IMG/VR virus record: IMGVR_UViG_3300010885_064552
Coordinates: 1 to 30,654 of that record
Source: a virus
Length of the DNA: 30,654 nucleotides
Strand: one strand, 5' to 3'
Part shown: piece after piece, positions 74-24,858 of the stretch
How the letters are laid out: each line of letters opens with the position of its first letter
Position numbering within the stretch: position 1 is the first letter of the stretch
Translations under genes and position numbers: made by a program
Notes under the pieces: generated by a model
Told to the model about the DNA's origin: nothing
Database searches by the model: none
The model's input: only the letters and a program-made list of their open reading frames with translations

Positions 74-102
74 TTGACGTTCCCGCAGATCGGTGCTACA
101 AT
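74..102 (+). promoter_or_regulatory. sigma-70 type early promoter with GATC in the spacer
   Basis: -35 TTGACG (74-79), 17-bp spacer, extended -10 TGCTACAAT (box 97-102). A GATC lies five bases upstream of the -10. Transcription should start near 109. Confidence 0.8.
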
Positions 103-964: not shown

Positions 965-992
965 TTGACATTCCCGCCCGATCCGGTATAAT
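965..992 (+). promoter_or_regulatory. strong sigma-70 type promoter with GATC in the spacer
   Basis: Perfect TTGACA (965-970), 16-bp spacer and perfect TATAAT (987-992). GATC ends three bases upstream of the -10. It drives the genes at 1037 and 1500. Confidence 0.9.
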
Positions 993-1444: not shown

Positions 1445-1499
1445 TAACCTTTTCACCCTATACTGTAAACCTTCCCGAGAACAAGAGAGAAAAGATATA

Positions 1500-1742
1500 A
1501 TGAATACCGTGAACAAGCCCAAGCTTCCTAACTATTTCCTCAAGTCGCGCCCCCATCACCTTGACAATAAAGTTGTCACTTGGTTCAACCTTGATCGTGT
1601 AAAGGTTGGTCGTTCGGTTGACTTCAACCGTACACAACACCATGGCACCGTTGCCCTTGTTTCACCGTGTGGTGAGATTGCCTTGGTTCGTCAAGCTGAT
1701 CGTATGGTTGAAGTGGAAGTGTGCGAGCTTACCACGCTTTGA
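1500..1742 (+). CDS. small early protein, unknown function
   Basis: Encodes 80 residues (MNTVNKPKLPNYFLKSRPHH...). The second half alternates hydrophobic and charged residues (GTVALVSPCGEIALVRQADR), suggesting a small beta-barrel or SH3-like fold. That fold call is inference and no family was recognised. Preceded by AGAGAAAAG about 8 nt before the ATG as a plausible ribosome site. It lies 55 bp after the gene at 1037 and is followed by a clear terminator at 1776. Confidence 0.7.
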   Translation: MNTVNKPKLPNYFLKSRPHHLDNKVVTWFNLDRVKVGRSVDFNRTQHHGTVALVSPCGEIALVRQADRMVEVEVCELTTL

Positions 1743-1775
1743 AACGTTTCAGTTAGAACGTTCGAATCCTACACT

Positions 1776-1801
1776 AACCCACCTTCATGGTGGGTTTTTT
1801 G
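1776..1801 (+). terminator. Rho-independent terminator
   Basis: Eight-bp stem AACCCACC/GGTGGGTT with a 5-nt loop, followed by a T run. It ends the second early unit. Confidence 0.85.
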
Positions 1802-1866
1802 TTTTCTTTTTAAACCGTTCACCACGAGTTCATTTGGTGTATGGTAGAACATCGAAGAGTTCCAGG

Positions 1867-1908
1867 GAGATCACGTATATGATCTGGTAGAGATCAGGGG
1901 GAGATCAC
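1867..1908. repeat. GAGATCAC/GAGATCAG elements, unit 3
   Basis: GAGATCAC at 1867, GATCTG at 1881, GAGATCAG at 1890 and GAGATCAC at 1901. The last ends 58 bp before the -35 box at 1967. The 330-bp gap 1743-2072 otherwise holds only the terminator at 1776, the promoter at 1967 and a long leader. Confidence 0.6.
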
Positions 1909-1966
1909 AGATAAGAATAAAAAACCCTCACAGTTTCGCGGACTTGGCACGACACGCACAAAGGGC

Positions 1967-12603: not shown

Positions 12604-12897
12604 ATGTCAAAAACTTTAAATGATTTAACAAGAGACTTCCTTTTAAATGAAGGAACAATGAAAGAAGCTTCATTAAAAGCCTATATTCAGGCTCTTGAAG
12701 AAAATATTTTAAAGTTTGAGGCTCGTTCAAATACAGAAGCAAGAAGACTTGAAGTTATGAAAGAACAGCTACGTGGTATCAAAAGAAACACACGTAGATT
12801 AGAGGAACAACTTCATCTTCTTGAAAGCAAGAATCTAGAATTACAAGAACAGTTAAGTTTGCTACAAGAGAAAAAGGATACAGCAGAAAATGTTTGA
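12604..12897 (+). CDS. coiled-coil protein
   Basis: 97 residues. The N-terminus MSKTLNDLTRDFLLNEGTMK has a hydrophobic/charged pattern with FLLNE, similar in style to other leader-like N-termini in this window. From about 25 to 92 it is a continuous coiled coil with Leu heptads (RRLEEQLHLLESKNLELQEQ). It overlaps the next gene by 8 bp. Its place before the 918-residue protein suggests a partner or head-core component, by context only. Confidence 0.75.
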   Translation: MSKTLNDLTRDFLLNEGTMKEASLKAYIQALEENILKFEARSNTEARRLEVMKEQLRGIKRNTRRLEEQLHLLESKNLELQEQLSLLQEKKDTAENV

Positions 12898-15646
12898 TCT
12901 ACTGTTAGAAGGTCGCCTTGGTGGTCACATGAGCCATATATATGAAAATGGCGATTTAACTTTTGGTGAATTAAAAGATGTTTTTAAGCAAGCATCAAAA
13001 GGCAAATTACAAGGCACCGAAAAAACAGACGGTCAAAATATTAAATTATCGTTCTCTGTCAAGAGACAGGTAGCTCTTGGAGCAAGAAATGCGACACAGA
13101 TTAAGCAAGGCGGTCTTTCAACAGACGAAATGGTTGCTTTCTTCGCAGATCATCCAAATCCAAATTTGAAGTTGGCATTTGGTGACGCAGTTAAGATTTT
13201 CGAAAAAGCTGTCAAACTATTGGATGTTGAAACCCAAATTGAACTGTTTGGTTCAAATGCTGACATTTGGTATAATGCCGAAGTAATGGATGATAGAACT
13301 CGTAACGTAGTTAATTACGATACAAGAAATCTTCTTATTCATCGCACAGGTCACGCATTATATGATAAATCAACTGGTAAAATAGTAGAAGATACAACTG
13401 GCGAAACAGATAAAAAATCAACCAAATTTATGAACTTTCTAGAAAAAGTTCAAAATAAGGTTTCCAACAAAAGACACGCCATTCTTATAAATCCAATCCA
13501 GAATCTACAAGCTTTAAGTAACAAGGAAGCATTACGTATAGCTATTTCCGGAGTCGAAAAAGTAATGTCAAAATATGGTTTGAGTGATAACAATACCATA
13601 AATGATTTACTTCGTAAGGATTTGAACGAAAGAATTAAAACAAGACTTCCAGAAGAAATTAAAGCAAAAATTATTTCTAACTTTTTGGATGTTGGACCAA
13701 AAGTTGGCAAGAAAGAATTGAAAAAAGACTTAACATCAGAATTGCGTGCCGAAGTTGATCAAATGATCGATAGTGGCACCACTTTGATGAAAGAAGCAAT
13801 AAGACCAATTGAAATAATTGTTACAGACTTTGCGGCTGAAATGTTAAAAACACTTGAAAGTATTTTTATTTTAGATAACAAAACTGAAACAGAAAGATTA
13901 TCAAAAGAAGTTCAAGCAGCAATTCAACAAATCCAGTCTTCTGGCAAAAAAGGTGATTTGGATTTCTTGAATCGCCAATTAGAAAAACTAAAAGGCGCTG
14001 ATTCTATCTCTTCTGCTGTTGAAGGCTTTGCTTTCAGCTATAAAGGCCATCTTTACAAGTTTACAGGTAAATTTGCTCCTGTAAATCAGATCCTGGGTCT
14101 ATCAAAGTATGGTAGAGGCAGTAAGTCAAGTCCAGAAGAACTTACAGAAGTTTCTAGTGGCTCAAAACGTTATGATATTGCTTTGTTGGGCGGTGGTTTC
14201 AAGCCACCACATAAAGGTCATATTGAACTATTAAAACAACTAGCGGCAAAAGCAGATCATGTCATTGTTTTAACAAGCGATAAGTCATCAAAGGAAAGAG
14301 CATTTAGTAGCGGACAACTAAAAGGCCAAATAATTGATGGTGCCAAATCAAATCAAGTTTTAAAACAGATGATTTCTCAGGTTCCTGAATTGTCAAATGT
14401 TGAATTAAAGATTACCTCAGCTCCACTTCGTTTTATATTTGAATATGTTGAAAAAGAAGCAGCATATGGCGAAACAATACTTCTTGGTGTTGGCGATAAA
14501 GAAGATGATGCCAAAAGATTTGCTAATATTGGTAAATACATTCCAAAAGATAGCAATATTAAAGTAGATATCGAAGTGCTCAAACCAACCACTTTTAACG
14601 GTGAAGCTTTAAGTGCCAGCAGAATGCGTGAAGTTATTTCAAATGGCAATTTGAGACAATTAATTAACTTTATTCCAGATGAAATTACTGATAAAACAAG
14701 ATTTGCTCAATTTATATTAGATACTTTTTTAGGAAAAACTGAAAAATCTCTTGAACAAGAAATAGAAGAAGAAGTATTAAATCTATTTAATAAAGATAAT
14801 ATAAATGAGATGAGTGCGGTCGGTGCTGGTGCCATGGCATTTAGTCCGGCAGCAATTGGAGCGGAACCAGTAAAGAGGAACAAGAAAATGAAAGAAATCA
14901 AAAGAGAACAATTTATGGAAGAACTACAATTAAGAAAGATGATCCGTAAGGCTCTTGTTCTTCGTGAAGAAAAAAAGAAAGCTGCTTTACAGCAAGAAGA
15001 GCTTTTAAGAAAAGAACTTCGTAAAATTATACGAGAAGCAAAACAAGATTTTAACTACGGTAACACCGGTTTAAATAAGCTTGGTGCTTTCTTACAGGTT
15101 AAGAAACCACTTATTTCCTCTGAATACAAACAGCTTCAAACTGATAAGAGTCAACGTGACGCTTTCAAGGCTCGCTTGCTTGACCGTTCCAAGGAATTGT
15201 TTGATGGATTAGAAGCAAAATTACAAGCTGGCAAGGGAGGTTCCGAAGATGAATCTGAACTTGAAGAAGAAATTAATGTTTCTATTGATGAGCCAGTCGA
15301 TAACAAACTTTTGCCAGGTATTCTTGATCCAAAGAAAGAACCCAAAGCTAAAAAAGATAAAGAAAAAGAATTTAAAGTTGAACCAACTGGCGAAAGAGAA
15401 GCTTCTAACTTTTTTGAAAGTTATGAAGGTGAACTTACAGAAATTTATACTGGACTTGACAATCCAACCGATCGACAGATGTTCCGGGATTACTACATGA
15501 GTAATGTAGCCGCTATCATGGATCAGGCTGAAGCTGAAGCTGGTAATGTTGCTAAACCAGTTGACACAACACCACCAGAAGGTGCTCAAGCTCAACAAAC
15601 AACTAGCGAACCAGCACCAGATCAGCAAAATCAACCAACTGTTTGA
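12890..15646 (+). CDS. ligase-like domain fused to a HIGH-motif nucleotidyltransferase
   Basis: 918 residues. The N-terminus GGHMSHIYENGDLTFGELKD opens a phage family I recall as DUF6267. EKTDGQN (K45) fits motif I KxDG of DNA/RNA ligases; NAEVMDD (E131), VEGFAF (E378) and YKFTGKF (K390) fit motifs III, IV and V, with a helical insertion at about 175-370. Residues about 428-600 form a cytidylyltransferase/NMN-adenylyltransferase fold: GGGFKPPHKGH (H441, H444) and LSASRMR (574-580). The tail 640-918 is charged, with helices (LRKMIRKAL, LRKELRKIIREA) and a disordered Pro/Gln end. Covalent nucleotidyl transfer plus nucleotide-monophosphate adenylylation is the expected chemistry; substrates are unknown. 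An internal ATG at 14888 may make the tail separately. Confidence 0.75.
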   Translation: MFDLLLEGRLGGHMSHIYENGDLTFGELKDVFKQASKGKLQGTEKTDGQNIKLSFSVKRQVALGARNATQIKQGGLSTDEMVAFFADHPNPNLKLAFGDAVKIFEKAVKLLDVETQIELFGSNADIWYNAEVMDDRTRNVVNYDTRNLLIHRTGHALYDKSTGKIVEDTTGETDKKSTKFMNFLEKVQNKVSNKRHAILINPIQNLQALSNKEALRIAISGVEKVMSKYGLSDNNTINDLLRKDLNERIKTRLPEEIKAKIISNFLDVGPKVGKKELKKDLTSELRAEVDQMIDSGTTLMKEAIRPIEIIVTDFAAEMLKTLESIFILDNKTETERLSKEVQAAIQQIQSSGKKGDLDFLNRQLEKLKGADSISSAVEGFAFSYKGHLYKFTGKFAPVNQILGLSKYGRGSKSSPEELTEVSSGSKRYDIALLGGGFKPPHKGHIELLKQLAAKADHVIVLTSDKSSKERAFSSGQLKGQIIDGAKSNQVLKQMISQVPELSNVELKITSAPLRFIFEYVEKEAAYGETILLGVGDKEDDAKRFANIGKYIPKDSNIKVDIEVLKPTTFNGEALSASRMREVISNGNLRQLINFIPDEITDKTRFAQFILDTFLGKTEKSLEQEIEEEVLNLFNKDNINEMSAVGAGAMAFSPAAIGAEPVKRNKKMKEIKREQFMEELQLRKMIRKALVLREEKKKAALQQEELLRKELRKIIREAKQDFNYGNTGLNKLGAFLQVKKPLISSEYKQLQTDKSQRDAFKARLLDRSKELFDGLEAKLQAGKGGSEDESELEEEINVSIDEPVDNKLLPGILDPKKEPKAKKDKEKEFKVEPTGEREASNFFESYEGELTEIYTGLDNPTDRQMFRDYYMSNVAAIMDQAEAEAGNVAKPVDTTPPEGAQAQQTTSEPAPDQQNQPTV
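14888..15646 (+). CDS. possible nested in-frame product of the 918-residue gene
   Basis: ATG 14888 (Met667) is preceded eight bases upstream by AGAGGA, one of the better ribosome sites in the region. Translation here would yield a separate protein of 252 residues starting MKEIKREQFMEELQLRK, which resembles the leader-like N-termini of other proteins here. It begins just after the nucleotidyltransferase domain and an Ala/Gly-rich linker (GAGAMAFSPAAIGA). Nested in-frame genes are known for phage scaffolds (lambda C/Nu3). Protein data would be needed to confirm it. Confidence 0.4.
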   Translation: MKEIKREQFMEELQLRKMIRKALVLREEKKKAALQQEELLRKELRKIIREAKQDFNYGNTGLNKLGAFLQVKKPLISSEYKQLQTDKSQRDAFKARLLDRSKELFDGLEAKLQAGKGGSEDESELEEEINVSIDEPVDNKLLPGILDPKKEPKAKKDKEKEFKVEPTGEREASNFFESYEGELTEIYTGLDNPTDRQMFRDYYMSNVAAIMDQAEAEAGNVAKPVDTTPPEGAQAQQTTSEPAPDQQNQPTV

Positions 15647-15673
15647 ACTGAGCACGTTTTGTATGTAGCATAA

Positions 15674-15702
15674 GATCGGATCTTTGTTCAGAAGATCCGA
15701 TC
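15674..15702. repeat. perfect 11-bp inverted repeat
   Basis: GATCGGATCTT (15674-15684), 7-nt loop TGTTCAG, then AAGATCCGATC (15692-15702). No T tract follows, so it is more likely a protein-binding or origin element than a terminator, though it could also protect the 3-prime end of the upstream mRNA. Confidence 0.7.
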
Positions 15703-16013
15703 AGATCACACACTTGTCGTCACAGCCTCTTAACAGATCAAACTGGATCTGATTATAATCGATCTACCAGATCAGATCTTAATAAAAATAAATAAAATCA
15801 AATACAAATAAATAAAGATCCTATAAAATACTAATATAAGATCTTATAAGAAAGAACTGAATACTATGAGTAGATCTTTTAAAGATATCGGAACAGATAT
15901 TGGATCTTTGGTAGAACAGAAAAACAAAGCTTATGGATCTTCTTTTGAAAAAAGTGCTGAGATCATAAAAATTCTTTATCCAGATGGTGTAAAACCAGAA
16001 CAATATACAGATC
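15674..16013. other. GATC cluster with AT-rich DNA: candidate replication origin
   Basis: Seventeen GATC sites start at 15674, 15679, 15694, 15699, 15704, 15736, 15746, 15761, 15770, 15775, 15817, 15840, 15873, 15903, 15936, 15961 and 16010. About one would be expected per 256 bp. The first four sit in an 11-bp perfect inverted repeat (GATCGGATCTT and its complement). The middle, 15776-15860, is AT-rich with GATC-headed 13-mers such as GATCTTAATAAAA, GATCCTATAAAAT and GATCTTATAAGAA, recalling the unwinding element of E. coli oriC. No DnaA box was seen. The gap 15647-15865 has no gene. Confidence 0.5.
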
Positions 16014-16141
16014 TTTTAGCTATTACTAGAGTTCTTGATAAATTATTCAGAATTGCTACCAAAAAAGATGCCTTTGGAGAAAGTCCTTGGCAAGACATAG
16101 CAGGTTATGCTATTTTGGGTATCAGTAAGGATGAAAAATGA
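15866..16141 (+). CDS. small conserved phage protein (nucleotide-modification-associated/DUF1599-like)
   Basis: 91 residues. The core NKAYGSSFEKSAEIIKILYP, then KPEQYTDLLAITRVLDKLFR and FGESPWQDIAGYAIL, matches a small phage family that I associate with DUF1599/nucleotide modification associated domains. The assignment is from memory and moderate. Helical, no signal. The 5-prime part of the gene keeps the high GATC density of the upstream region, here created by Asp-Leu, Gly-Ser and Arg-Ser codon choices. It overlaps the next start by ATGA. Confidence 0.75.
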   Translation: MSRSFKDIGTDIGSLVEQKNKAYGSSFEKSAEIIKILYPDGVKPEQYTDLLAITRVLDKLFRIATKKDAFGESPWQDIAGYAILGISKDEK

Positions 16142-16515
16142 TTTCAGTTCCATATGAAAAGAAAAAGAAAATCTACGGAACAAGGAAACATTATTCAGTC
16201 ATCTCTAAATTAGAGAATGACGGAAAAATAAATGAACAGTTCCAGCTTATGATGAATAAGTTATCATTTGAAGAAGTAATTGCTGCCAAGTTAGAATTAG
16301 CAGCAAAAGCTTCTGGTGGTTTTATTTATGGCATACCTATTTGGAACTCGTTATTACATATAGTTCGTGATGCTACATTAAAATTTGCTTTATCAGCGAC
16401 ACGCACAAAAGCAGAAGCAGCCAGATTTCTTGGTGTAAATATTGATAATTTTAACACCTATTTAGATCAATACGAAACAGAAAATTATTTTGAAGATTCA
16501 GAAAATAAAAACTAG
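16138..16515 (+). CDS. protein with Fis-type helix-turn-helix
   Basis: 125 residues. Residues about 83-112 (DATLKFALSATRTKAEAARF then LGVNIDNFNTYL) match the C-terminal helix-turn-helix of Fis/NtrC-type proteins, in which a helix is followed by a KxxAAxxLGV turn and recognition helix. The N-half is basic then helical. It is likely a DNA-binding regulator or nucleoid-type protein. It is translationally coupled to the gene at 15866 and lies next to the candidate origin, so a role there is possible but inferred. Confidence 0.7.
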   Translation: MISVPYEKKKKIYGTRKHYSVISKLENDGKINEQFQLMMNKLSFEEVIAAKLELAAKASGGFIYGIPIWNSLLHIVRDATLKFALSATRTKAEAARFLGVNIDNFNTYLDQYETENYFEDSENKN

Positions 16516-16525: not shown

Positions 16526-16598
16526 GGGCTTGTAGCTCAATTGGGAGAGCGCCAGATTTGCATTCTGGAGGTTGTGGGATCGTCCCCCATCAGGTCCA
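16526..16598 (+). tRNA. tRNA-Ala (TGC)
   Basis: Acceptor GGGCTTG/CAGGTCC (two wobbles), D arm GCTC/GAGC, anticodon stem CCAGA/TCTGG around TTTGCAT, T stem GTGGG/CCCAT with atypical loop ATCGTCC. CCA is not encoded. Confidence 0.9.
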
Positions 16599-16612
16599 TA
16601 AATTTCTTTGTG

Positions 16613-16650
16613 GTGTGTGGAGAATTTGAACTTCACACACTATTTATTTT
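16613..16650 (+). terminator. hairpin with TATTTATTTT tail
   Basis: Nine-bp stem GTGTGTGGA/TTCACACAC (one G-U), loop of 10, followed by TATTTATTTT. The HNH gene starts directly after it, so it may double as a processing or late-promoter signal. Confidence 0.55.
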
Positions 16651-17169
16651 ATGACTAAAAAAATACAAAAACAATGTTTGGCATGTAATAAAATATTTTT
16701 GGCACCTTCTTCAGAAGTCAATAGAGGTAATGGTAGATATTGTTCTATAGATTGTGGAAGAAAATCAAGAAGTCTGTTTAAAAAACAGAAACAGCATAAT
16801 TGTCATTGTGCTTTTTGTAATAAAACATTTTATAGAAATAATACAAAACAAAAAGCATCAAGAAGTGGATTACAATTCTGCAATCGATTATGTAAAGAAA
16901 AAGCTCAAAAATTAGGTGGTATAAAAGAAATACAACCAGAACACTATGGAAAGGGCGTTTTCGATTATCGTAAATTTGCTTTAGAACAAAAACCACACGT
17001 TTGTGAAAAATGTGGTTATAATAAAATTCCACAAATTTTAGAAGTTCATCACAAAGATAGAAATAGAAAAAATAACGATATTTTAAATTTACAAATTTTA
17101 TGTTCTAGATGCCACGATGAAGAACACTATTTAACAAATACTGGAAAATGGCTTAAAAAGTTTGAATAA
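16651..17169 (+). CDS. free-standing HNH endonuclease (homing type)
   Basis: 172 residues. Two N-terminal zinc-knuckle segments (CLACNKIF..YCSIDC and CHCAFCNKTF..QFCNRLC) precede an HNH nuclease module: CEKCGYNK, LEVHHKDRNRKNND, NLQILCSRCHDEEH (His133/134, Asn, His155) with two CxxC zinc ligands. Such genes spread by cutting related genomes lacking them. It lies 52 bp after tRNA-Ala in a stretch with other nucleases next to tRNAs. No SD is visible; the ATG directly follows a hairpin and T tract. It is AT-rich relative to its neighbours, as is usual for homing genes. Confidence 0.9.
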   Translation: MTKKIQKQCLACNKIFLAPSSEVNRGNGRYCSIDCGRKSRSLFKKQKQHNCHCAFCNKTFYRNNTKQKASRSGLQFCNRLCKEKAQKLGGIKEIQPEHYGKGVFDYRKFALEQKPHVCEKCGYNKIPQILEVHHKDRNRKNNDILNLQILCSRCHDEEHYLTNTGKWLKKFE

Positions 17170-17186
17170 ACTAATTAATAAAAGTT

Positions 17187-17570
17187 ATGATCAAAAAATT
17201 AATTTCAGCAATCAGAAAAAAGAAAGAAGACCCATCGGTTCGTCCGTGGGGCAATTATCAGATTCTTCACGAAGAAGATTCTCATAAAGTAAAAGTAATA
17301 ACTGTTCTTCCTGGAAAAAGATTAAGTCTCCAGTCACACGAGAAGCGTGAAGAATTTTGGGTTGTTGTTGAAGGTGAAGGTTTAATGACATTAGGAATAA
17401 TGAAGTTTACTATGAAAGTAGGAGACAAAGTTAAAATACCACTCAGAACAAAGCACAGAATAGAAAATATAGGTTCAGTTCCACTTAAATTTATTGAAGT
17501 TCAGACTGGTACCTATTTTGGTGAAGATGATATAATCAGATATGAAGATGATTTTGGGAGAGCACAATGA
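17187..17570 (+). CDS. cupin protein related to type II mannose-6-phosphate isomerase
   Basis: 127 residues. The sequence RPWGNYQIL, VITVLPGKRLSLQSHEKREE, FWVVVEGEGL, GDKVKIPLRTKHRIEN and EVQTGTYFGEDDIIRYEDDF follows the C-terminal cupin of bifunctional PMI/GDP-mannose pyrophosphorylases closely. His (QSH), Glu (EE) and His (KHR) supply the metal site. It may isomerise phosphosugars for glycan or surface-polysaccharide metabolism, which fits the glycosyltransferase at the window's end. It overlaps the next gene by ATGA. Confidence 0.88.
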   Translation: MIKKLISAIRKKKEDPSVRPWGNYQILHEEDSHKVKVITVLPGKRLSLQSHEKREEFWVVVEGEGLMTLGIMKFTMKVGDKVKIPLRTKHRIENIGSVPLKFIEVQTGTYFGEDDIIRYEDDFGRAQ

Positions 17571-17773
17571 AACTAAGAGTTGATAATGTAAAAGAAAACG
17601 GTGATGGTTCAGTTACTGTTGACTTTGAAATAGACGATGAAATGGAAGAGTTTATAGCTAAACGATACGGTGTCACTGTTGAAGAACTAACTCCGGAACA
17701 AACCCAAGAATTCGTCTTAGAGGCAATAAACGGTTTAGTAAAAGAAAAAGAAAAAGAATTACAACAACCTTGA
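17567..17773 (+). CDS. small acidic protein, unknown
   Basis: 68 residues (MKLRVDNVKENGDGSVTVDF...), coupled to the cupin gene by ATGA. A beta strand pair (SVTVDFEIDDEM) is followed by helices (EELTPEQTQEFVLEAINGLV). No family recognised. The terminator at 17782 follows directly. Confidence 0.75.
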   Translation: MKLRVDNVKENGDGSVTVDFEIDDEMEEFIAKRYGVTVEELTPEQTQEFVLEAINGLVKEKEKELQQP

Positions 17774-17781
17774 TTTCTTGA

Positions 17782-17829
17782 TAGTGCGTAATGTGTGGTT
17801 AATACCCGTATTACGCACTATTTATTTTT
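17782..17829 (+). terminator. long hairpin terminator
   Basis: Eleven-bp perfect stem TAGTGCGTAAT/ATTACGCACTA, 17-nt loop, tail TTTATTTTTA. The next ATG lies at its end. Confidence 0.8.
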
Positions 17830-18714
17830 ATGAAAATTATATTTGAAAAAGAAAAGAAAGGTGATCGTTGTACACGTATTGCGAAGCGCAAATATGATGT
17901 ATGGCCATCAGCATATGCTTCTGGAGCTGTTGTTAAATGCCGCCAAGGAAAGATTTGGAAAGGTATTAGTGAAGAAATAACAGAAGAAGAATTACAAGAA
18001 ATGATAGCCGAAGAGCTAGCCGAAGAATTAAATAATTTAGAAGAAGAAAAAAAGAAGCCCGATTTCAAAAAAGAGAAAGAACAAGGACTACATGGTTGGT
18101 TTTCCAGAAAAGGCGGAAAAGATGGAAAAGGTTGGGTAGACTGTAATACTTGCCGCACAGACAAAGAAACTGGAAAAAAGACTTGTAAATCTTGTGGTAG
18201 ACAAGAAGGCGAAAAAAGAGCTAAATATCCGGCTTGTAGACCAAAGCCAGGTGATTGTGGATCTACCGGTAAAGGAAGCGAGTGGGGCAAGAAATCAGAA
18301 TCTGTTGAAATAGAAAATTCTAATCTATTAGAACAGGAAGAAGATCCCAAGAAGCAAGCAGATGCTGCTATAAAGGATGCCGCCGCCGTTGCCAAAGCTG
18401 CCGAACAAGAGAAAAGAGCGCAGGTGATGGTCAACAAAGCAAGACCATCAGAGCAACAAGCATCAAAACAGGCTGATTTAAAAAGTAAGTTAGAACAAGA
18501 AAAGATAGCCAAAGATAATTTAAAGAAAGCCAAAGAAAGTGCTGAACAGATTTCGGAAGAAAAAAGCAATTTTCAAAAAGAAATGGAAAGAAAAGGTAAA
18601 GGCTGGAAAATTCGTTTGTTAACAAAGGGCAAGCAATCAGCCGGTTCAGCTTATCCAAATAAGGCACCAGTAGAGAGAGCAAAAAGCGCACCTCCCGGTG
18701 CAGGTGGAGTTTGA
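17830..18714 (+). CDS. multi-module Cys-rich phage protein (DUF5872/DUF6321-like motif)
   Basis: 294 residues. Residues about 12-44 (DRCTRIAKRKYDVWPSAYAS then GAVVKCRQGKIW) are a small conserved module. Residues about 90-140 (GLHGWFSRKGGKDGKGWVDC, KYPACRPKPGDC) match a Cys-rich motif I recall as DUF5872/6321, found in phages and giant viruses; six Cys suggest zinc binding. Between them lies the recurring helix ELQEMIAEELAEEL. The C-half is a long charged helix. Function unknown; nucleic-acid binding or packaging in the head is a guess from composition. No SD is visible. Confidence 0.7.
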   Translation: MKIIFEKEKKGDRCTRIAKRKYDVWPSAYASGAVVKCRQGKIWKGISEEITEEELQEMIAEELAEELNNLEEEKKKPDFKKEKEQGLHGWFSRKGGKDGKGWVDCNTCRTDKETGKKTCKSCGRQEGEKRAKYPACRPKPGDCGSTGKGSEWGKKSESVEIENSNLLEQEEDPKKQADAAIKDAAAVAKAAEQEKRAQVMVNKARPSEQQASKQADLKSKLEQEKIAKDNLKKAKESAEQISEEKSNFQKEMERKGKGWKIRLLTKGKQSAGSAYPNKAPVERAKSAPPGAGGV

Positions 18715-18715
18715 T

Positions 18716-19312
18716 ATGACACAAGAAATGAAAAAATTATTAAGAGAGTTTAAGACTTATCTTACAGAAGAATCAAAGATTACTGATGCTTATTCAGTTT
18801 TAAAATTATTTGTTAGTTTGGGTGCTGAGCCGGGAACACCAGAAGCACAAGTCATTTCAAATATCCAAAATATTGTTAATTTTTCTGATCGTTATAAAGA
18901 AGCACCAGAATTATTAACCTCTTCACCAAGAGACGTTGTGGTAGCACAAGAAAAAATATCAGACAAATATGTTCAGAAATTTATTATTGACTTGCTGAAT
19001 AAAAATGGTTTGCCACAAGAAAAAATTTCTCAATTCATGAATTATGTCTCTCAAACAACAAAGAGTCCAGAAGAAATTCAGCAAGCAGCAGCTGAATACA
19101 GCAAAGAAAAAGAAGAAAAAGAGAAAGATGCTTATGAATTGGGTGATGAAGATGTTACTCCACCCCCACCACAACAAAATAAAACTGTATCTCCTCCAAC
19201 TCGCAGAAAGGCTGCTCCAAAGCCCGTTAGTGGAGTAAAGCCTGTCACACCAGAAGATAGCGCCTTGGCAGCTTACCGTAAAAAAGCAACAGGCAATACA
19301 ACAAAGCCATAA
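18716..19312 (+). CDS. helical phage protein with capsid-targeting-like leader
   Basis: 198 residues from ATG 18716, with GGTGGAG seven bases upstream. The N-terminus MTQEMKKLLREFKTYLTEES resembles the T4 capsid-targeting peptide, with YLTE a possible prohead-protease site. Residues 25-130 are helical, ending in a charged helix (YSKEKEEKEKDAYEL); the tail is Pro/Lys-rich and disordered (TPPPPQQNKTVSPPTRRK). No family recognised. It starts 1 bp after the stop of the previous gene, so the two are coexpressed. Likely an internal or structural component; inference only. Confidence 0.7.
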   Translation: MTQEMKKLLREFKTYLTEESKITDAYSVLKLFVSLGAEPGTPEAQVISNIQNIVNFSDRYKEAPELLTSSPRDVVVAQEKISDKYVQKFIIDLLNKNGLPQEKISQFMNYVSQTTKSPEEIQQAAAEYSKEKEEKEKDAYELGDEDVTPPPPQQNKTVSPPTRRKAAPKPVSGVKPVTPEDSALAAYRKKATGNTTKP

Positions 19313-19317
19313 TACCC

Positions 19318-19346
19318 TTTACAAACTTTAAGAGTTCGTTTAGACT
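19318..19346 (+). promoter_or_regulatory. tRNA promoter
   Basis: TTTACA (19318-19323), 17 bp, TAGACT (19341-19346). The predicted start is at or next to the tRNA-Ser 5-prime end at 19355. Confidence 0.7.
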
Positions 19347-19354
19347 GTTCGTAT

Positions 19355-19444
19355 GGATCGATAGCCAAGTGGCTTACGGCACCGGATTACTAACCCGGCA
19401 TAGCAGAAATGCTATCGAAAGTTCGAATCTTTCTCGATCCGCCA
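19355..19444 (+). tRNA. tRNA-Ser with unusual ACT anticodon
   Basis: Acceptor GGATCGA/TCGATCC, long variable arm (ATAGCA/TGCTAT) as in class II tRNAs, T arm GAAAG TTCGAAT CTTTC, discriminator G and encoded CCA. The anticodon loop TTACTAA gives ACT (Ser, AGT codon). GCT is the usual anticodon. The anticodon stem has one A-C mismatch at its base. Confidence 0.85.
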
Positions 19445-19460
19445 TTCTCAAGGAGAGAAT

Positions 19461-19712
19461 ATGAACGATATTAAAGAAGTGGTTGAGCAAAAACAGGGTC
19501 AACCATGGAAAATCGAAAAAACCTGTGAAGATTTTGAAACAGCCGATACGGCAAGAAAGAATTTACTTGCTAATAGCAGTGATGGGCTACAAGCAAAAGT
19601 AAAATTTTTACCATCAATTGGTAAGTTTGTGGTAAAAAGCCGAAGCCCACTAGAAGCCGTAGTTGAACAAAAAACTAATAAGAAAAACAAGAAGCAAACT
19701 CCCGCCGCTTGA
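19461..19712 (+). CDS. small basic protein between tRNA genes, unknown
   Basis: 83 residues with SD AAGGAGAG. Sequence MNDIKEVVEQKQGQPWKIEK, a helix, then a beta-like segment (KVKFLPSIGKFVVKSRSP) and a Lys-rich tail. No family recognised; a small nucleic-acid-binding fold is possible. It is cotranscribed with tRNA-Ser, and its TGA stop lies within the -35 box of the promoter at 19709. Confidence 0.7.
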   Translation: MNDIKEVVEQKQGQPWKIEKTCEDFETADTARKNLLANSSDGLQAKVKFLPSIGKFVVKSRSPLEAVVEQKTNKKNKKQTPAA

Positions 19713-19737
19713 CACCAGCCCCAGATCGTGTTAAGAT
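19709..19737 (+). promoter_or_regulatory. promoter with GATC in the spacer
   Basis: TTGACA (19709-19714), 17 bp, extended -10 TGTTAAGAT (box 19732-19737). GATC is four bases upstream of the -10. It drives tRNA-Ile(TAT) and the genes after it. Confidence 0.85.
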
Positions 19738-19775
19738 GGTTTCACCAGATCGGCCCCAGACGGTTTGGTGGTTCT

Positions 19776-19852
19776 GCTCCCGTAGCTCAGGTAGTTAGAG
19801 CGTTCGTCTTATAAGCGAAATGTCGTTGGTGCAACTCCAACCGGGAGTACCA
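19776..19852 (+). tRNA. tRNA-Ile (TAT)
   Basis: Acceptor GCTCCCG/CGGGAGT, anticodon stem TTCGT/GCGAA with loop CTTATAA, T arm GTTGG/CCAAC, discriminator A and encoded CCA. It reads ATA, a codon common in AT-rich phage genes. Confidence 0.9.
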
Positions 19853-19858
19853 AATATT

Positions 19859-20182
19859 ATGAATTACGATTCTGATACACACCATTTTGATTGCGATTGT
19901 TCAAGTGCTCAACACATTTTTAGATTAACTTCCGAAAATGGATGGGATTCTGATTATCCACCAGAACTTCATATATCAATTCAACTAAATAAATATAAAA
20001 ATTTATATAGACGTTTTGTAATAGCAGTTAGATACTTTTTTGGATATGAGTGTAAATTTGGACATTGGGATATAGTAACTCTTAAAGAAGACGATTTAAA
20101 TCGTTTGATTGTTTTGCTACACCAGCACAGAATTAAGATCGAGAAACATAAGTTAGAGAAGGAAAAGAAAAATGCAACCTGA
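19859..20182 (+). CDS. small conserved-looking phage protein, unknown
   Basis: 107 residues from ATG 19859, 7 nt after tRNA-Ile. Starts inside the tRNA are rejected. Sequence MNYDSDTHHFDCDCSSAQHI, then a beta-rich middle (PPELHISIQLNKYKNLYRRF) and a charged C-terminal helix. The DCDCSS segment recalls a phage protein pattern I have seen but cannot name. No SD, and it is likely cotranscribed with the tRNA. It overlaps the next small gene by 11 bp. Confidence 0.7.
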   Translation: MNYDSDTHHFDCDCSSAQHIFRLTSENGWDSDYPPELHISIQLNKYKNLYRRFVIAVRYFFGYECKFGHWDIVTLKEDDLNRLIVLLHQHRIKIEKHKLEKEKKNAT

Positions 20183-20309
20183 TACTTGGGCTGGTGCCTT
20201 TAAAGAGTTTTTTAAACAAGCAGGTGCTGTTGGTGCTTTGTTGATTATGTGTTTGACTGTTGGTCAGTGTAGTGGATTTGTAGATATTTATCGATTATTG
20301 GGCAAATGA
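20172..20309 (+). CDS. 45-residue membrane peptide
   Basis: MQPDTWAGAFKEFFKQAGAV, then a hydrophobic stretch (GALLIMCLTVGQCSGFVDIY). One likely transmembrane helix at about 18-40. GGAAAAG precedes the ATG at 20172. Its TGA directly abuts the 3-prime end of the convergent endonuclease gene. Function unknown; small membrane proteins are common phage host-modifying factors. Short but well supported by SD and position. Confidence 0.55.
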   Translation: MQPDTWAGAFKEFFKQAGAVGALLIMCLTVGQCSGFVDIYRLLGK

Positions 20310-21014
20310 TTACATACGTTTTAAAATATTTTTTAAGTGTTCTTCAATTAAATTAAGATAAAAATTAGCTTTTGAAATTTTAAAATATTTATCTTTTGAT
20401 ACATCAATAATAAGAAGTTCTATTCCGGCCTCGTAACAACGAATAATTTTCTGCTTATCATTATTTTGAATTTTTTCTAGTTTATTGTTTCCATAAATTG
20501 GTTCATAATGAAAAATTCCATTAAGTTCGATAGCAAATTTTAATGTTGGAAAATAAAAATCTAATTCTGAACCTATTACCTGTTTGTTATTACACAATAT
20601 TTCTAAATCAGAAAAATTGGTTTTAATTTTATTTTCTAAATATATTTCAAGTTTTGAGCGTCTTATACCTTTTGCTTTATTTTTATTATTATATATAGCA
20701 GCGCAACTTGAAGAACAAAAAACGTGTTTCGAGTCCGATAACTGACTTATTCTTCTTTTTACTTGTTTTCCACACTGATTGTCGCATAACTTAGTTATAT
20801 TGTGTTGTTGTCCTATATTCTCTTTAGAACATTTGTCGCTACAGTAGAAACCACTCCAGCCTCTTTTCAAAGATTGAAATATTAATCTTTTAACTCTTAA
20901 GAAAGGTTCTTTACAAAACGAGCATACAATGCTAACTTTCTCACGCGACTTATAGGAATTCAGAATATTGTTATTTTGTATTATTTCTTCTATTGTATAA
21001 GTTATTTTATTCAT
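20310..21014 (-). CDS. Vsr-like/PD-(D/E)XK free-standing homing endonuclease
   Basis: 234 residues, minus strand. Three zinc-knuckle pairs (VCSFCKEPF, FYCSDKCSKE, KLCDNQCGKQ, FCSSSCAAIY) precede a nuclease domain at about 118-210: RSKLEIYLENKI, GSELDFYFPTLKFAIELNG, FHYEP, then ELLIIDVS. This is the E..D..E.N.H arrangement of Vsr-like EDxHD homing nucleases. Its start lies 10 bp from tRNA-Arg, which has an abnormal D arm, and it opposes its neighbours. It resembles the nuclease at 29076 in layout. Likely a selfish intergenic gene. Confidence 0.8.
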   Translation of the reverse strand: MNKITYTIEEIIQNNNILNSYKSREKVSIVCSFCKEPFLRVKRLIFQSLKRGWSGFYCSDKCSKENIGQQHNITKLCDNQCGKQVKRRISQLSDSKHVFCSSSCAAIYNNKNKAKGIRRSKLEIYLENKIKTNFSDLEILCNNKQVIGSELDFYFPTLKFAIELNGIFHYEPIYGNNKLEKIQNNDKQKIIRCYEAGIELLIIDVSKDKYFKISKANFYLNLIEEHLKNILKRM

Positions 21015-21024
21015 AAATTTATTT

Positions 21025-21096
21025 GCCCTGTCTGCCGGATGCAGCCACCGGTCTTCTAAACCAGTACGGAACGTTCGACTCGTTCACGGGGTGCCA
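21025..21096 (+). tRNA. tRNA-Arg (TCT) with reduced D arm
   Basis: Acceptor GCCCTGT/ACGGGGT, anticodon stem CCGGT/ACCAG (one mismatch) with loop CTTCTAA, T arm GAACG TTCGACT CGTTC, discriminator G and CCA. The D region is short: CTGC/GCAG with a 5-nt loop, and the usual two linker bases are absent. It may be functional but atypical, or degrading. Confidence 0.65.
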
Positions 21097-21161
21097 TATA
21101 ATAAATAGTAGTTACAATTCGAATTTATAATTTTAAAACACGAATAAAGCGCCAAATTAAT

Positions 21162-21314
21162 ATGCCACATTTTATTTCTAAATTACTACGTAAACTGATT
21201 AAACTACCACACCATATGTGTGATACCTGTTTAAACACTTTTGAACACACAACACTGAAAGGTGAATGTTTGTGTCATTTGTGTTATAAAAATAAGTATT
21301 TAAAAAACAAATAG
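21162..21314 (+). CDS. 50-residue zinc-ribbon-like protein
   Basis: MPHFISKLLRKLIKLPHHMC starts with a basic amphipathic helix, followed by CDTCLNTFEH and GECLCHLCYK, a treble-clef or zinc-ribbon arrangement of CxxC pairs. Function unknown; nucleic-acid or protein binding is possible. No strong SD (AATTAAT). It lies 24 bp before the TTG start of the next gene. Confidence 0.5.
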   Translation: MPHFISKLLRKLIKLPHHMCDTCLNTFEHTTLKGECLCHLCYKNKYLKNK

Positions 21315-21338
21315 ATACTTAGTATTAGAGGGTTATTC

Positions 21339-21635
21339 TTGAAAGACGATGAAATTGATTATGACAAAGCTGTAAGACTCGCTGAAATGATTCAACGAGC
21401 TATTAGCGATATTACAGATGCGGTTTCATACAACATCGACGAAGAAGACAACTATTCTAAACTAGCTACATACTCAGCATTGTTAACTGTCGCAGGTTAT
21501 TTTGAATTTAAATTAACACAAGACGGGTTTAAAACATCAGAATTAGATGTAACAAAAACAGGTGCTGAGAAATATGTGTTATCGATGATAACAGAAGAAT
21601 TAGAAACAATACCACAGAAAAAAGGCGATGCGTAA
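21339..21635 (+). CDS. small helical protein, unknown
   Basis: 98 residues. TTG 21339 is chosen because GAGGG lies six to seven bases upstream and no ATG is near. Sequence MKDDEIDYDKAVRLAEMIQR, all helical and acidic. No family recognised. It overlaps the dCMP deaminase gene by 8 bp, so the two are coexpressed. Confidence 0.65.
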   Translation: MKDDEIDYDKAVRLAEMIQRAISDITDAVSYNIDEEDNYSKLATYSALLTVAGYFEFKLTQDGFKTSELDVTKTGAEKYVLSMITEELETIPQKKGDA

Positions 21636-22053
21636 TTACAAGTTATATTGGGATGATATCTGGATGGGCTTGGCAAATGATATCTCCACTAAATCAAGTG
21701 ATCCACGATTAAAAGTTGGCGCTGTTATTGTCACCGAAGATAATGAAAGCGTTCTGGCTATTGGTTATAATGGTGATGAAAAAGGTGGAGATAACAAGCC
21801 AGATAGTTTAGAGCCAGGTTGTTCTAATTTCATTCACGCAGAAGTTAATGCTATTGCGAAAATGAATTATAATGATCCAAGACCAAGAAAAATGTATGTT
21901 ACACATGCACCGTGTGCTGTTTGTGCTAGATTAATCATTAATTCAAATATCAAGAAAGTAATTTACTGCTATCCATATAGAAGTGAACAAGGCATCGATA
22001 TTTTAAAGAAAAGAAACATCGAAGTCTTATCTTGCCATTCAGATTTTGAATGA
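21628..22053 (+). CDS. dCMP deaminase (cytidine/deoxycytidylate deaminase family)
   Basis: 141 residues. The zinc-binding and catalytic motif is complete: HAEVNAIAK (H70, E72) and APCAVCARLII (C96, C99). It begins with the family opening (DDIWMGLANDISTKSSDPR), followed by VGAVIV. The expected reaction is dCMP to dUMP, feeding dTMP synthesis during phage DNA replication. It overlaps both neighbours (8 bp and ATGA), so it is translationally coupled. A broader C-to-U family member cannot be excluded, but length and motif spacing favour dCMP deaminase. Confidence 0.92.
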   Translation: MRNYKLYWDDIWMGLANDISTKSSDPRLKVGAVIVTEDNESVLAIGYNGDEKGGDNKPDSLEPGCSNFIHAEVNAIAKMNYNDPRPRKMYVTHAPCAVCARLIINSNIKKVIYCYPYRSEQGIDILKKRNIEVLSCHSDFE

Positions 22054-22319
22054 TTACATTTTCTCTAACTTCCAACCAAGAACAAAAATTAAATCTTTGG
22101 TTGGAAGAACAAGAAAAAATTCTGATTCAAAAACAAAAGATTTCTATGTCAGAATCTGATTGGAAAGACTTAACATCTGATGGTGAATACCCTTATTATG
22201 GTGCCATCGGTGGCGGTATTCAATATATTTTTAATCCAACATCAATCGGAGTTGGCGTAAGGGTAAAATATTTACCAACCGGAGAAGAAATCGATTTAAC
22301 GGATTACGATGAATGGTGA
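22050..22319 (+). CDS. small protein after dCMP deaminase, unknown
   Basis: 89 residues (MITFSLTSNQEQKLNLWLEE...), ATGA overlap with the deaminase gene. N-terminal helix (LNLWLEEQEKILIQKQK), then a Gly-rich beta segment (YYGAIGGGIQYIFNPTSIGV) and an acidic end. No family recognised and no clear link to nucleotide metabolism beyond the operon. Confidence 0.7.
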   Translation: MITFSLTSNQEQKLNLWLEEQEKILIQKQKISMSESDWKDLTSDGEYPYYGAIGGGIQYIFNPTSIGVGVRVKYLPTGEEIDLTDYDEW

Positions 22320-22324
22320 TAGAA

Positions 22325-22639
22325 ATGTCAAACAAAACTCAACTAGAACTCAATTTAGAAATTCGTGTTGATGGACACGACAATAAAACAACAGTTAAAA
22401 TGCGTAAATACGTGGAAACTGGATTCATTCCACAACACGGTATGGAAATTATTGACAGTGGGATTGTTTTCCGAGTAAAATCCATAGCAATGGCTGGTCT
22501 TTTAGAATTAAAACACGTTGCAAATCCAGATTTTCGAAATCCGCAAGGTTTAGCACGTATGTCCAGAACAGCCGATGAAAAATGGTTGAATGACAAAGTG
22601 AATAGTTTTAAAAATCAAGGATGGTCAGTAGTTAAATGA
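22325..22639 (+). CDS. small basic protein, unknown
   Basis: 104 residues from ATG 22325 (GGTGAT upstream); ATG 22313, overlapping the previous stop, would add four residues. Begins MSNKTQLELNLEIRVDGHDN, beta-rich, with a basic C-terminal helix (WLNDKVNSFKNQGWSVVK). No family recognised. Overlaps the next gene by ATGA. Confidence 0.65.
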   Translation: MSNKTQLELNLEIRVDGHDNKTTVKMRKYVETGFIPQHGMEIIDSGIVFRVKSIAMAGLLELKHVANPDFRNPQGLARMSRTADEKWLNDKVNSFKNQGWSVVK

Positions 22640-22839
22640 AAAAAATTGATGTAGAAACATTTATCGAAACGTTACAGGAAGACTTGGTAGAATTTGAAGA
22701 AAACGTACACTCAGGAACCTTTCAGAATCGTAATGCCCATGAATGGTTTAAGCTTTTAAATGATTGGGTTGAATATGGTTTTTCCCGAAGGGCAACAGAA
22801 GAGTGGGAAGAATTTGGTGTAGACGAAGACGACAACTGA
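22636..22839 (+). CDS. small acidic protein, unknown
   Basis: 67 residues (MKKIDVETFIETLQEDLVEF...). Helical and strongly acidic with conserved-looking Trp residues (HEWFKLLNDWVEYGF). It may mimic nucleic acid by charge but no family is recognised. It is the last gene before the promoter of tRNA-Leu(CAA). Confidence 0.7.
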   Translation: MKKIDVETFIETLQEDLVEFEENVHSGTFQNRNAHEWFKLLNDWVEYGFSRRATEEWEEFGVDEDDN

Positions 22840-22846
22840 TCTCCCC

Positions 22847-22875
22847 TTGACAGATCAACCGCTCCATGCTAAGAT
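22847..22875 (+). promoter_or_regulatory. tRNA promoter with GATC
   Basis: TTGACA (22847-22852), 17 bp beginning GATC, extended -10 TGCTAAGAT (box 22870-22875). The start is predicted near tRNA-Leu at 22885. Confidence 0.85.
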
Positions 22876-22884
22876 GGAGCACAC

Positions 22885-22971
22885 GCCGGGATGGTGGAAC
22901 TGGCAGACACGGCAGACTCAAAATCTGCTGCTGGCAACAGCGTGAGGGTTCGACCCCCTCTTCCGGCACCA
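22885..22971 (+). tRNA. tRNA-Leu (CAA)
   Basis: Acceptor GCCGGGA/TTCCGGC, anticodon stem GCAGA/TCTGC with loop CTCAAAA, long variable arm (GCTGCTGGCAACAGC), T arm GAGGG/CCCTC, discriminator A and encoded CCA. It reads TTG. Confidence 0.92.
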
Positions 22972-22977
22972 TAAATT

Positions 22978-23220
22978 ATGATTACAAAAGAGAAAATTCA
23001 TCAAATTGGTAGTTTCATCGGTTCACTACCTGATATTGAAGTTACGTTAAAGTATCTTGTGGTTAATTACTTAAAGCTGTTTACTGAAAACGATAAGTTA
23101 AAAAACGAAGTTCTGAACCTTAAGAAAGAAAACAGCGACCTCTTGACAGAAGCTGCGGATCATGCTAGAATGGTGCAGGAGCTTGAAGCGGAACTAGAAG
23201 CATTCAAGACGATTCATTAA
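22978..23220 (+). CDS. small coiled-coil protein between two tRNA-Leu genes
   Basis: 80 residues from ATG 22978, 6 nt after the tRNA. The N-half is helical (MITKEKIHQIGSFIGSLPDI); residues 35-78 form a coiled coil (ENDKLKNEVLNLKKENSDLL). No SD; cotranscribed with tRNA-Leu(CAA). Its last 80 bp contain a full promoter (23143) for the next tRNA, so coding and promoter functions overlap. Confidence 0.65.
   Translation: MITKEKIHQIGSFIGSLPDIEVTLKYLVVNYLKLFTENDKLKNEVLNLKKENSDLLTEAADHARMVQELEAELEAFKTIH
23143..23171 (+). promoter_or_regulatory. promoter inside a coding region, with GATC in the spacer
   Basis: TTGACA (23143-23148), 17 bp, extended -10 TGCTAGAAT (box 23166-23171). GATC is four bases upstream of the -10. 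It points to tRNA-Leu(TAA) at 23227. Confidence 0.75.
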
Positions 23221-23226
23221 ACCTGT

Positions 23227-23313
23227 GCTCTGATGGTGGAATAGGTAGACACAGCAGACTTAAAATCTGCCGACCGAAAGGTCATGCCGGTTCGATTCCG
23301 GCTCGGAGCACCA
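23227..23313 (+). tRNA. tRNA-Leu (TAA)
   Basis: Acceptor GCTCTGA/TCGGAGC, anticodon stem GCAGA/TCTGC with loop CTTAAAA, variable arm GACCGAAAGGTC, T arm GCCGG/CCGGC, discriminator A and encoded CCA. It reads TTA. Confidence 0.92.
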
Positions 23314-23316
23314 AAA

Positions 23317-23700
23317 ATGAAAAGTAAAGAAAAAGGCGATATCGCAGTAGCAAAAGCAATTAGCTATTATATGCAAACCGGTTACGAAGTTTTGCTTCCT
23401 ATTGGGGATAAACGACCATATGATTTAGTCCTTGAAGATACTCAAGGAATCTTAATAAAAGTTCAATGCAAATATACTTCTCATGAGAGTGACTATGGTA
23501 TTTATCAAGTTCCATTAAGAGTGATGGGTGGTAATCGAAGCTATAATACTGCCAAATCATATGACAAGAAAGATTTCGATATTCTTTTTGTCTATACTTC
23601 CGATAGAAGTATGTATGCAATACCATTTAAAGACATTACTGCAAAAAATTCTATAAGTCTTGGCGAATTATATTTAAAATATAAAATAATGGAGAATTAG
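23317..23700 (+). CDS. PD-(D/E)XK homing endonuclease wedged between tRNA genes
   Basis: 127 residues from ATG 23317, 3 nt after the tRNA-Leu CCA; starts inside the tRNA are rejected. The pattern KGDIAVAKAISYYMQTGYEV, IGDKRPYDLVLED and ILIKVQCKYT (D, then Q-x-K) is the PD-(D/E)XK core of the I-Ssp6803I/Holliday-resolvase-like family, whose founding homing member is tied to a tRNA intron. The last codons ATG GAG AAT TAG lie inside the 5-prime acceptor strand of tRNA-Tyr. It is therefore fused snugly into the tRNA array. Activity and target are unknown. Confidence 0.75.
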   Translation: MKSKEKGDIAVAKAISYYMQTGYEVLLPIGDKRPYDLVLEDTQGILIKVQCKYTSHESDYGIYQVPLRVMGGNRSYNTAKSYDKKDFDILFVYTSDRSMYAIPFKDITAKNSISLGELYLKYKIMEN

Positions 23701-23779
23701 CCCGTTAAAGTAGGCGGTTCGGTCTGTAAAACCGAAATCTCTTTGATCCAAGTGGGTGCGATTCCCTCATTCTCCACCA
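23691..23779 (+). tRNA. tRNA-Tyr (GTA)
   Basis: Acceptor GGAGAAT/ATTCTCC, anticodon stem TCGGT/ACCGA with loop CTGTAAA, long variable arm, T arm GTGGG region with loop TGCGATT, discriminator A and encoded CCA. Its first 10 nt overlap the end of the upstream nuclease gene. Confidence 0.88.
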
Positions 23780-23827
23780 GAGTTTAAACTTTCTCTAAAA
23801 AAGTCTTCGTTAATTAAGGAAATAAAT

Positions 23828-24073
23828 ATGTCATCAAATCGCGCACTAACCTACCTCAAGTCAGAAATTCGTTCACGTGTTCTCGAAAACGGAACAGTAT
23901 CTGCCGCTGATGTTGTTAATGTAATGCGCCTTCACCTTGAAGGATCAGAGCGTGGTGGTTTTGTAACCAAAGCCTTCCGTGACCTAGTAACAGAAGGACT
24001 CCTACGTCCAACACGTCGTACAGAACTTAACCGTAATACACGTCACCAAGTTACTGTCTATCGCGTTCGCTGA
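23828..24073 (+). CDS. small basic protein, possible winged-helix fold
   Basis: 81 residues from ATG 23828 with SD AAGGAA. Sequence MSSNRALTYLKSEIRSRVLE, then SAADVVNVMRLHLEGSERGG and a basic C-terminal beta hairpin (LLRPTRRTELNRNTRHQVTV). The helix-helix-hairpin order resembles a winged-helix DNA-binding fold, but no family is recognised. GC and codon choice (CGT, CTC) are more like the early genes at 1-2.5 kb than its neighbours, suggesting high expression. Followed by a strong terminator. Confidence 0.7.
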   Translation: MSSNRALTYLKSEIRSRVLENGTVSAADVVNVMRLHLEGSERGGFVTKAFRDLVTEGLLRPTRRTELNRNTRHQVTVYRVR

Positions 24074-24109
24074 TTTAGGCTGATTTGTTAGAAAAATTTA
24101 ATATCCTTC

Positions 24110-24138
24110 GAAACCCACTTAACCGTGGGTTTCTTTTT
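24110..24138 (+). terminator. Rho-independent terminator
   Basis: Nine-bp stem GAAACCCAC/GTGGGTTTC, loop TTAACC, tail TTTTT. It abuts tRNA-Ile(GAT) at 24139, so that tRNA needs readthrough or its own start. Confidence 0.85.
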
Positions 24139-24215
24139 GGACCGGTAGTTCAGTTGGTTAGAATGTCGCTCTGATAAGGCGAAGGTCGATAGTTCAAATC
24201 TATCCCGGTCCACCA
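24139..24215 (+). tRNA. tRNA-Ile (GAT)
   Basis: Acceptor GGACCGG/CCGGTCC, D arm with GTTGGTT loop, anticodon stem TCGCT/GGCGA with loop CTGATAA, T arm CGATAG TTCAAAT CTAT, discriminator A and encoded CCA. Confidence 0.92.
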
Positions 24216-24227
24216 TTTAAGGAACAT

Positions 24228-24773
24228 ATGAATTTTCGTAATGAAACTCGTCGTGAACGATACAATAAAAAGAAAATTATTTCTTCCAAACTACCTATTG
24301 AAGTATGTACCGTAAATTTCAAAGAGGAAGTGAATGTAGCGTTCGTACTTCGTAGTGCTGCTTGTTTTGGAGCAAGTGCTGTAAACGTAATTGGTTCAGT
24401 ACCAAAGCGTAAAACACTCGCAACACGTTCAGGAACACTACAAGATTACGTGCCGATTAATCAGTTCAGTAATCCACATGAGTTTCTCCAATACTGTAAA
24501 CAAAATTCTATTAAAATTGTTAGCGCAGAGTTGGACTCAGAAGCTGTATCAATTCATCGATATAATTTCTCGTCTGATCTAGAACAGTATAAAAAGATTT
24601 GTGTTGTTGTTGGTCACGAACAAGTTGGTATTCCCCCGGATATCTTGAAGAATAGTTCAAAGGTCTTTATTGATATGCCAGGAATTGGTTTTTGTTTGAA
24701 TACAAGTCAGGCAGCAAACATTTTTCTTTATGAAGTGACTAAACAAATTCTTAATTTAGGTCTAAATAAGTAG
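24228..24773 (+). CDS. SPOUT (TrmH/SpoU-type) RNA 2-prime-O-methyltransferase
   Basis: 181 residues, the minimal TrmH-type length without an extra RNA-binding domain. SPOUT motifs: NVAFVLRSAACFGASAVNVI (motif 1, with the catalytic Arg), VVGHEQVGIPPDIL (motif 2) and IDMPGIGFCLNTSQAANIFL (motif 3 of the trefoil knot). It should transfer methyl from AdoMet to a ribose 2-prime OH of tRNA or rRNA. Position between tRNA-Ile and tRNA-Thr suggests tRNA as substrate, perhaps Gm18 or wobble position 34, but the exact nucleotide cannot be told. AAGGA precedes the ATG. Confidence 0.88.
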   Translation: MNFRNETRRERYNKKKIISSKLPIEVCTVNFKEEVNVAFVLRSAACFGASAVNVIGSVPKRKTLATRSGTLQDYVPINQFSNPHEFLQYCKQNSIKIVSAELDSEAVSIHRYNFSSDLEQYKKICVVVGHEQVGIPPDILKNSSKVFIDMPGIGFCLNTSQAANIFLYEVTKQILNLGLNK

Positions 24774-24782
24774 AAGCTATTG

Positions 24783-24858
24783 GCCACCATAGTTAAAATG
24801 GATATAACTCCTGTTTTGTAATCAGGAATTACAGGATCATACCCTGTTGGTGGCTCCA
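24783..24858 (+). tRNA. tRNA-Thr (TGT)
   Basis: Acceptor GCCACCA/TGGTGGC, D stem AGTT/AACT, anticodon stem CCTGT/TCAGG (one T-T mismatch) with loop TTTGTAA, T stem ACAGG/CCTGT with unusual loop ATCATAC, discriminator T and encoded CCA. It reads ACA. Confidence 0.82.

Follow-up and report, generated by a model that had tools for sequence, protein, structure and literature searches.

Genes and features at the locus

The window, i.e., the whole stretch of DNA analysed here, is the 30,654-base virus record IMGVR_UViG_3300010885_064552, which lies inside a 78,417-base contig (G001) at 99.97% identity. Most of it is also present in a more distant relative, G004 (187,750 bases), at 65-86% nucleotide identity. 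Since G004 carries at its end a repeat of its beginning (93-98% over ~600 bases), this contig is probably close to complete, and it is T4-like, as its large terminase (gene at 53391-54983) matches the T4-type Terminase_6N family. The terminases nearest to it are those of Flavobacterium phage immuto and Microcystis phage Mel-JY01, and a host assignment via these closest phages was rejected, 41-43% terminase identity being too far. The phage of the window is a freshwater, T4-like phage.

At the locus, an intergenic region carries a hairpin, a predicted promoter and an A+T-rich leader, followed by a pair of genes (Table 1). The region comes after the gene of a 918-aa protein (12890-15646), which has a cytidylyltransferase-like domain mid-protein and a long relative in Microcystis phage Mel-JY01. 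Further downstream (16526-24858), nine tRNA genes lie among protein genes, several of them with their own GATC-bearing predicted promoter, and an HNH-endonuclease gene (16651) comes after the first tRNA.

Table 1. Coordinates of the features discussed, in positions of the window
Feature	Position	Strand	Remarks
Intergenic region, 219 bp	15647..15865	+	Sibling phages: ~45 bp at this place
GATC cluster, 17 sites	15674..16013	.	Conserved in L002-L005; genome maximum in G004
Hairpin, 11-bp perfect arms made of GATC sites	15674..15702	+	RNA fold -17 kcal/mol, z -4.9; conserved
Sigma70-type promoter (predicted), TTAACA-18-TATAAT	15730..15759	+	Consensus match; two GATC in spacer
A+T-rich leader, possible DNA unwinding element	15776..15860	+	84.7% A+T
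91-aa protein, phrog_1485 (unknown function)	15866..16141	+	Weak likeness to nucleotide-modification-associated domain 1
125-aa protein, Fis-like predicted fold	16138..16515	+	AlphaFold model, Foldseek
Early promoter (predicted), TTGACG-17-TACAAT	74..102	+	GATC at -9; upstream array at 1 and 12
Early promoter (predicted), TTGACA-16-TATAAT	965..992	+	GATC in spacer; upstream array at 880, 893 and 903
tRNA-Ile promoter (predicted)	19709..19737	+	GATC at -8
tRNA-Leu promoter (predicted)	22847..22875	+	GATC adjoining -35 box

The arms of the hairpin, GATCGGATCTT (15674-15684) and AAGATCCGATC (15692-15702), enclose a 7-nt loop and form the perfect inverted repeat that an initial sequence-only reading had described. 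A terminator was considered for this position and rejected: the hairpin is strong, and no U-tract comes after it, so that it is not a standard terminator. The promoter sits inside the GATC cluster and points across the leader. It is kept in the relatives with the -10 variants TATACT and TATAGT, and only GATC itself stays constant, with flanks that vary.

The sequence-only reading had also pointed to an AT-rich stretch of 85 bp, and the leader indeed contains the least stable 85 bp of the window, with its peak at 15779. In nearest-neighbour energy, no other stretch of G001 is less stable at a length of 60, 85 or 120 bp. In G004, the leader takes second place at 60 bp and also at 85 bp, being at the latter length the sole fully intergenic stretch among the eight least stable, and at 120 bp it comes fourth. 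Between G001 and G004 the leader is rearranged by substitutions and indels, with its low stability retained, and the GATC-headed 13-mers once seen in it appear weak in the light of this rearrangement. A leader that is A-rich and little structured would also fit efficient translation.

The gene at 16138, which had been credited with a Fis-type helix-turn-helix, encodes a protein that gave no significant match against Pfam. Its AlphaFold model (pLDDT 82) nevertheless retrieved Fis first, as the best 12 solved structures found by Foldseek were all Fis chains (probability up to 0.98, E-values of at least 0.3), two of them in Fis-Xis-DNA complexes. Judged by its predicted fold, a Fis-like protein is plausible. 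The gene is present also in phages without the cluster.

Density, selection and distribution of the GATC cluster

The 17 GATC sites start at 15674, 15679, 15694, 15699, 15704, 15736, 15746, 15761, 15770, 15775, 15817, 15840, 15873, 15903, 15936, 15961 and 16010, which bears out the counts first reported for this locus, namely 17 sites in 340 bp with the first ten within 105 bp. The next-best 340-bp bin in the window holds 8 sites. The homologous cluster of G004 marks the maximum of that genome, with 17 GATC in 340 bp compared with 11 in the next bin, whereas 20 genomes simulated with an order-2 Markov model peaked at just 6-8 per bin.

The number of sites is kept across three diverged lineages (18, 20 and 20 in the aligned cluster segment), while individual sites were gained or lost. 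The cluster continues into the 15866 gene, whose first 150 bp are enriched in GATC. Its first 51 codons carry five sites against 1.2 expected from codon shuffling (p=0.001), and the corresponding values for its homologue are six and 1.2 (p=0.0002). These results support the earlier proposal that the coding part of the cluster is under selection beyond coding. Elsewhere, the examined homologues of the 15866 gene have at most six GATC in the 260 bp upstream, compared with 13-14 here, and the cluster is thus ruled out as a property of this gene family. A search with the 26-nt hairpin pattern likewise gave matches in the same contigs only. On these two grounds, the cluster is an innovation of this subclade, placed in a gap that is short in the sibling phages.

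Another dense site was noticed in G004, where the second-densest GATC cluster (L103:18798-19140, 11 in 340 bp, codon-shuffle p=0.0002) sits inside the gene of a family A DNA polymerase. It was rejected as a second conserved site, being absent from homologues at 41-49% identity.

A density above that of every other place in G004 could be thought to serve as a decoy array, titrating a host GATC-binding protein such as SeqA, MutH or Dam. This would be a most improbable role, as G004 has 683 GATC sites (other or equal), to which 17 add little, and as the conserved promoter and the melting element lie in the midst of the sites. The extension of the GATC group from the intergenic region into coding sequence also brings to mind the packaging start of phage P1, pac, whose GATC group likewise runs into coding sequence, and where terminase cutting would be controlled by GATC methylation. 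Such a function is very unlikely here, since the T4-type large terminase gene of G004 lies ~73 kb away from the cluster (about 127.7 kb). In addition, the cluster differs from pac in having a promoter and a melting element, and T4-type phages, which package by the headful mechanism, are not known to use a strong pac site.

GATC at fixed places in predicted promoters of the clade

From G001, G004 and four sibling contigs, we collected 54 predicted intergenic promoters, each located immediately ahead of a CDS or tRNA gene. All of them are predictions by consensus; that most are real is argued by their orientation, as the 40 from G001 and G004 are all on the coding strand. Of the 54, 22 have a GATC that begins 7-10 bp before the -10 box, compared with 1.86 expected from the promoters' own flanks. 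This position was first noticed in all six contigs pooled, and the groups were then scored apart: G004 alone has such a GATC in 10 of 30 promoters (P 1e-7), and in the four sibling contigs 7 of 14 have it, each time at exactly -9 (P about 1e-12). The counts are not all independent, since the 54 promoters include orthologues, among them part of the siblings' tRNA promoters; in these tRNA promoters, GATC is unchanged within spacers that otherwise differ. No excess was seen among the promoter-like sites of distant relatives, at most one of 191 having GATC at -9.

The typical form in the clade, TTGACR-N8-GATC-N-GTGY-TAnnAT, is that of an extended -10 promoter in which GATC immediately precedes the TG element. 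Arrays of GATC with a spacing of one helical turn, at about -86, -97 and -108, also occur at early promoters of G004 and of the window's GC-rich left part; examples in the window, in addition to those of Table 1, include sites at 1869/1881/1892/1903. The GC-rich early module itself (window 1-1910 and L110, about 141-151 kb of G004; about 0.47-0.52 G+C) has repeated promoters, with arrays spaced 10-13 bp at these distances from the -10 box. GC-rich regions were observed in two sibling phages as well (L117:2300-5000 and L127:17700-19500), and predicted promoters there are surrounded by GATC at 11-19 per kb. In G012 (L117-L123), most 4-bp palindromes (CTAG, AGCT, ACGT, GTAC, TCGA, TTAA and AATT) are strongly depleted, while GATC is not depleted and is enriched between genes.

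Outside the clade, the promoter pattern gave 71 matches in bacterial genomes, mostly in Clostridia, which name no host and are read as chance given many promoters, because other promoters at the same loci show no GATC excess. In viral contigs, at least 119 stretches matched, compared with 61 for a GACT control; we did not take this count as proof, as hits selected by pattern are biased and about half of the stretches come from contigs that show no kinship with the clade. The promoter-like sequence TTGACAAACCCCCAGATCCGTGCTATGAT, which has GATC at -9, recurs in near-identical form in L142, L146, L191, L203, L205, L206, L218 and L237, contigs that have no clear kinship with the clade. In the literature, we found no paper combining GATC with phage early promoters.

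The recurrence of GATC at fixed places in many promoters of the clade points to transcription control first. Moreover, a 4-bp palindrome without fixed flanks that recurs at fixed promoter places, together with a Dam-type gene in a relative, is best accounted for by adenine methylation as the operative mark, and varying flanks around a constant GATC are as expected for a methylation site.

Methylases and the proposed function of the cluster

This Dam-type gene was found in G004 (175745-176095), in a region that is not covered by G001. Its product belongs to the PF05869 Dam family and scores 95.6 bits against NCBIfam TIGR01712 (phage N-6-adenine-methyltransferase), just under the cut-off of 97.05. 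Phage T1 Dam is presumably a member of the same family with GATC as its target. About 1 kb away lies the gene of a PF01555 adenine methylase (174058-174771), the best solved relative of which was deposited as DpnA; two different adenine methylase genes thus occur within about 2 kb (L111:14058-16095, G004:174058-176095). GATC is the putative target of both enzymes. Among 20 further records searched, a PF05869 match was obtained in the distant relative G030 only, and the enzyme is hence not universal. The search for a Dam methylase suggested by the sequence-only reading thus turned up the PF05869 family member of G004, and no D12-type Dam (PF02086) was detected in four contigs, G004 included. 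SeqA (PF03925) was not found in six phage contigs.

Taken together, we consider the site to be a methylation-gated promoter region in which the GATC sites are the operative element, with a probability of about 0.5. This reading builds on features that the sequence shows: a conserved cluster, the match to a promoter, a GATC promoter element recurring across the clade, the melting minimum and, in G004, a Dam-type gene. The promoter would fire rightward over the easily melted leader into the 15866/16138 gene pair, and the seventeen GATC, at about -90 to +250 around a start predicted near 15766, would be kept as a dense array. From these features, we infer methylation of the cluster sites, a reader and a switch: the array might be written by adenine methylation, with host Dam or a Dam-type enzyme of the phage itself as the writer, and its reader might be RNA polymerase or a GATC-specific protein. 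The promoter could then differ in activity on methylated DNA entering the cell and on freshly copied DNA that is hemi- or unmethylated, which would provide an early/late timing switch. Dam-controlled promoters such as those of phage Mu mom, P1 cre, IS10 pIN and E. coli dnaA2p are alike in having GATC in or next to a sigma70 promoter, and a close relative has a gene for a Dam-type enzyme. In contrast to these systems, seventeen sites occur together here, and a fixed spacer GATC is present in many promoters of one clade. Against the methylation-gated promoter stands the density itself, as 17 sites in 340 bp exceed what promoter control usually needs, and so does the lack of SeqA in the contigs searched.

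The layout of E. coli oriC had been proposed for this locus by the sequence-only reading. The likeness extends to a genome-maximal GATC cluster beside DNA of low stability and to a nearby gene with a Fis-like predicted fold, whereas the promoter inside the cluster and the lack of SeqA in the phage set the two apart; no skew switch was seen either. The DnaA box TTWTNCACA, moreover, occurs in the window only at 17010 and 20766, with none near the cluster, and the oriC layout is accordingly not upheld. Neither GC skew nor the skew at 4-fold sites switches anywhere in G004, and since one skew sign and one main gene direction prevail throughout this genome, the skew test cannot decide on an origin.

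The main rival is an origin of the T4 oriF/oriG type, composed of a promoter and a downstream unwinding element, the firing of which would be timed or limited by GATC methylation, much as oriC is controlled by Dam and SeqA. We regard it as possible, though rather unlikely, and it may coexist with a methylation-gated promoter; if the locus does hold an origin, its layout would be of this type and not that of oriC. As in oriF and oriG, the predicted promoter of this T4-like phage has directly behind it an A+T-rich stretch that melts easily, and the 85 bp in question, the weakest in G001 and the second weakest in G004, coincide with the GATC maximum. The neighbour with its Fis-like predicted fold and the Dam-type gene of G004 would suit such an origin as well. 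The GATC cluster, in contrast, is a difference from the T4 origins. The absence of a skew switch argues against an origin, though G004 has none anywhere, as do the missing DnaA box, the sibling phages that live without the whole arrangement, and the A-rich unstructured leader, which equally fits efficient translation.

Returning to the methylation-gated promoter region, a wider and more doubtful extension is that the clade uses GATC methylation as a promoter grammar, comprising the fixed spacer GATC, the phased early arrays, a master cluster with an unwinding element that couples replication start to methylation state, and its own Dam-type enzyme. Methylation-sensitive promoters and origins are already known, one at a time. 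A whole phage clade in which many promoters have GATC at a fixed position, together with a genome-maximal cluster on a melting element, would, if true, amount to a methylation clock for the entire genome, by which infecting DNA is told apart from newly made DNA.
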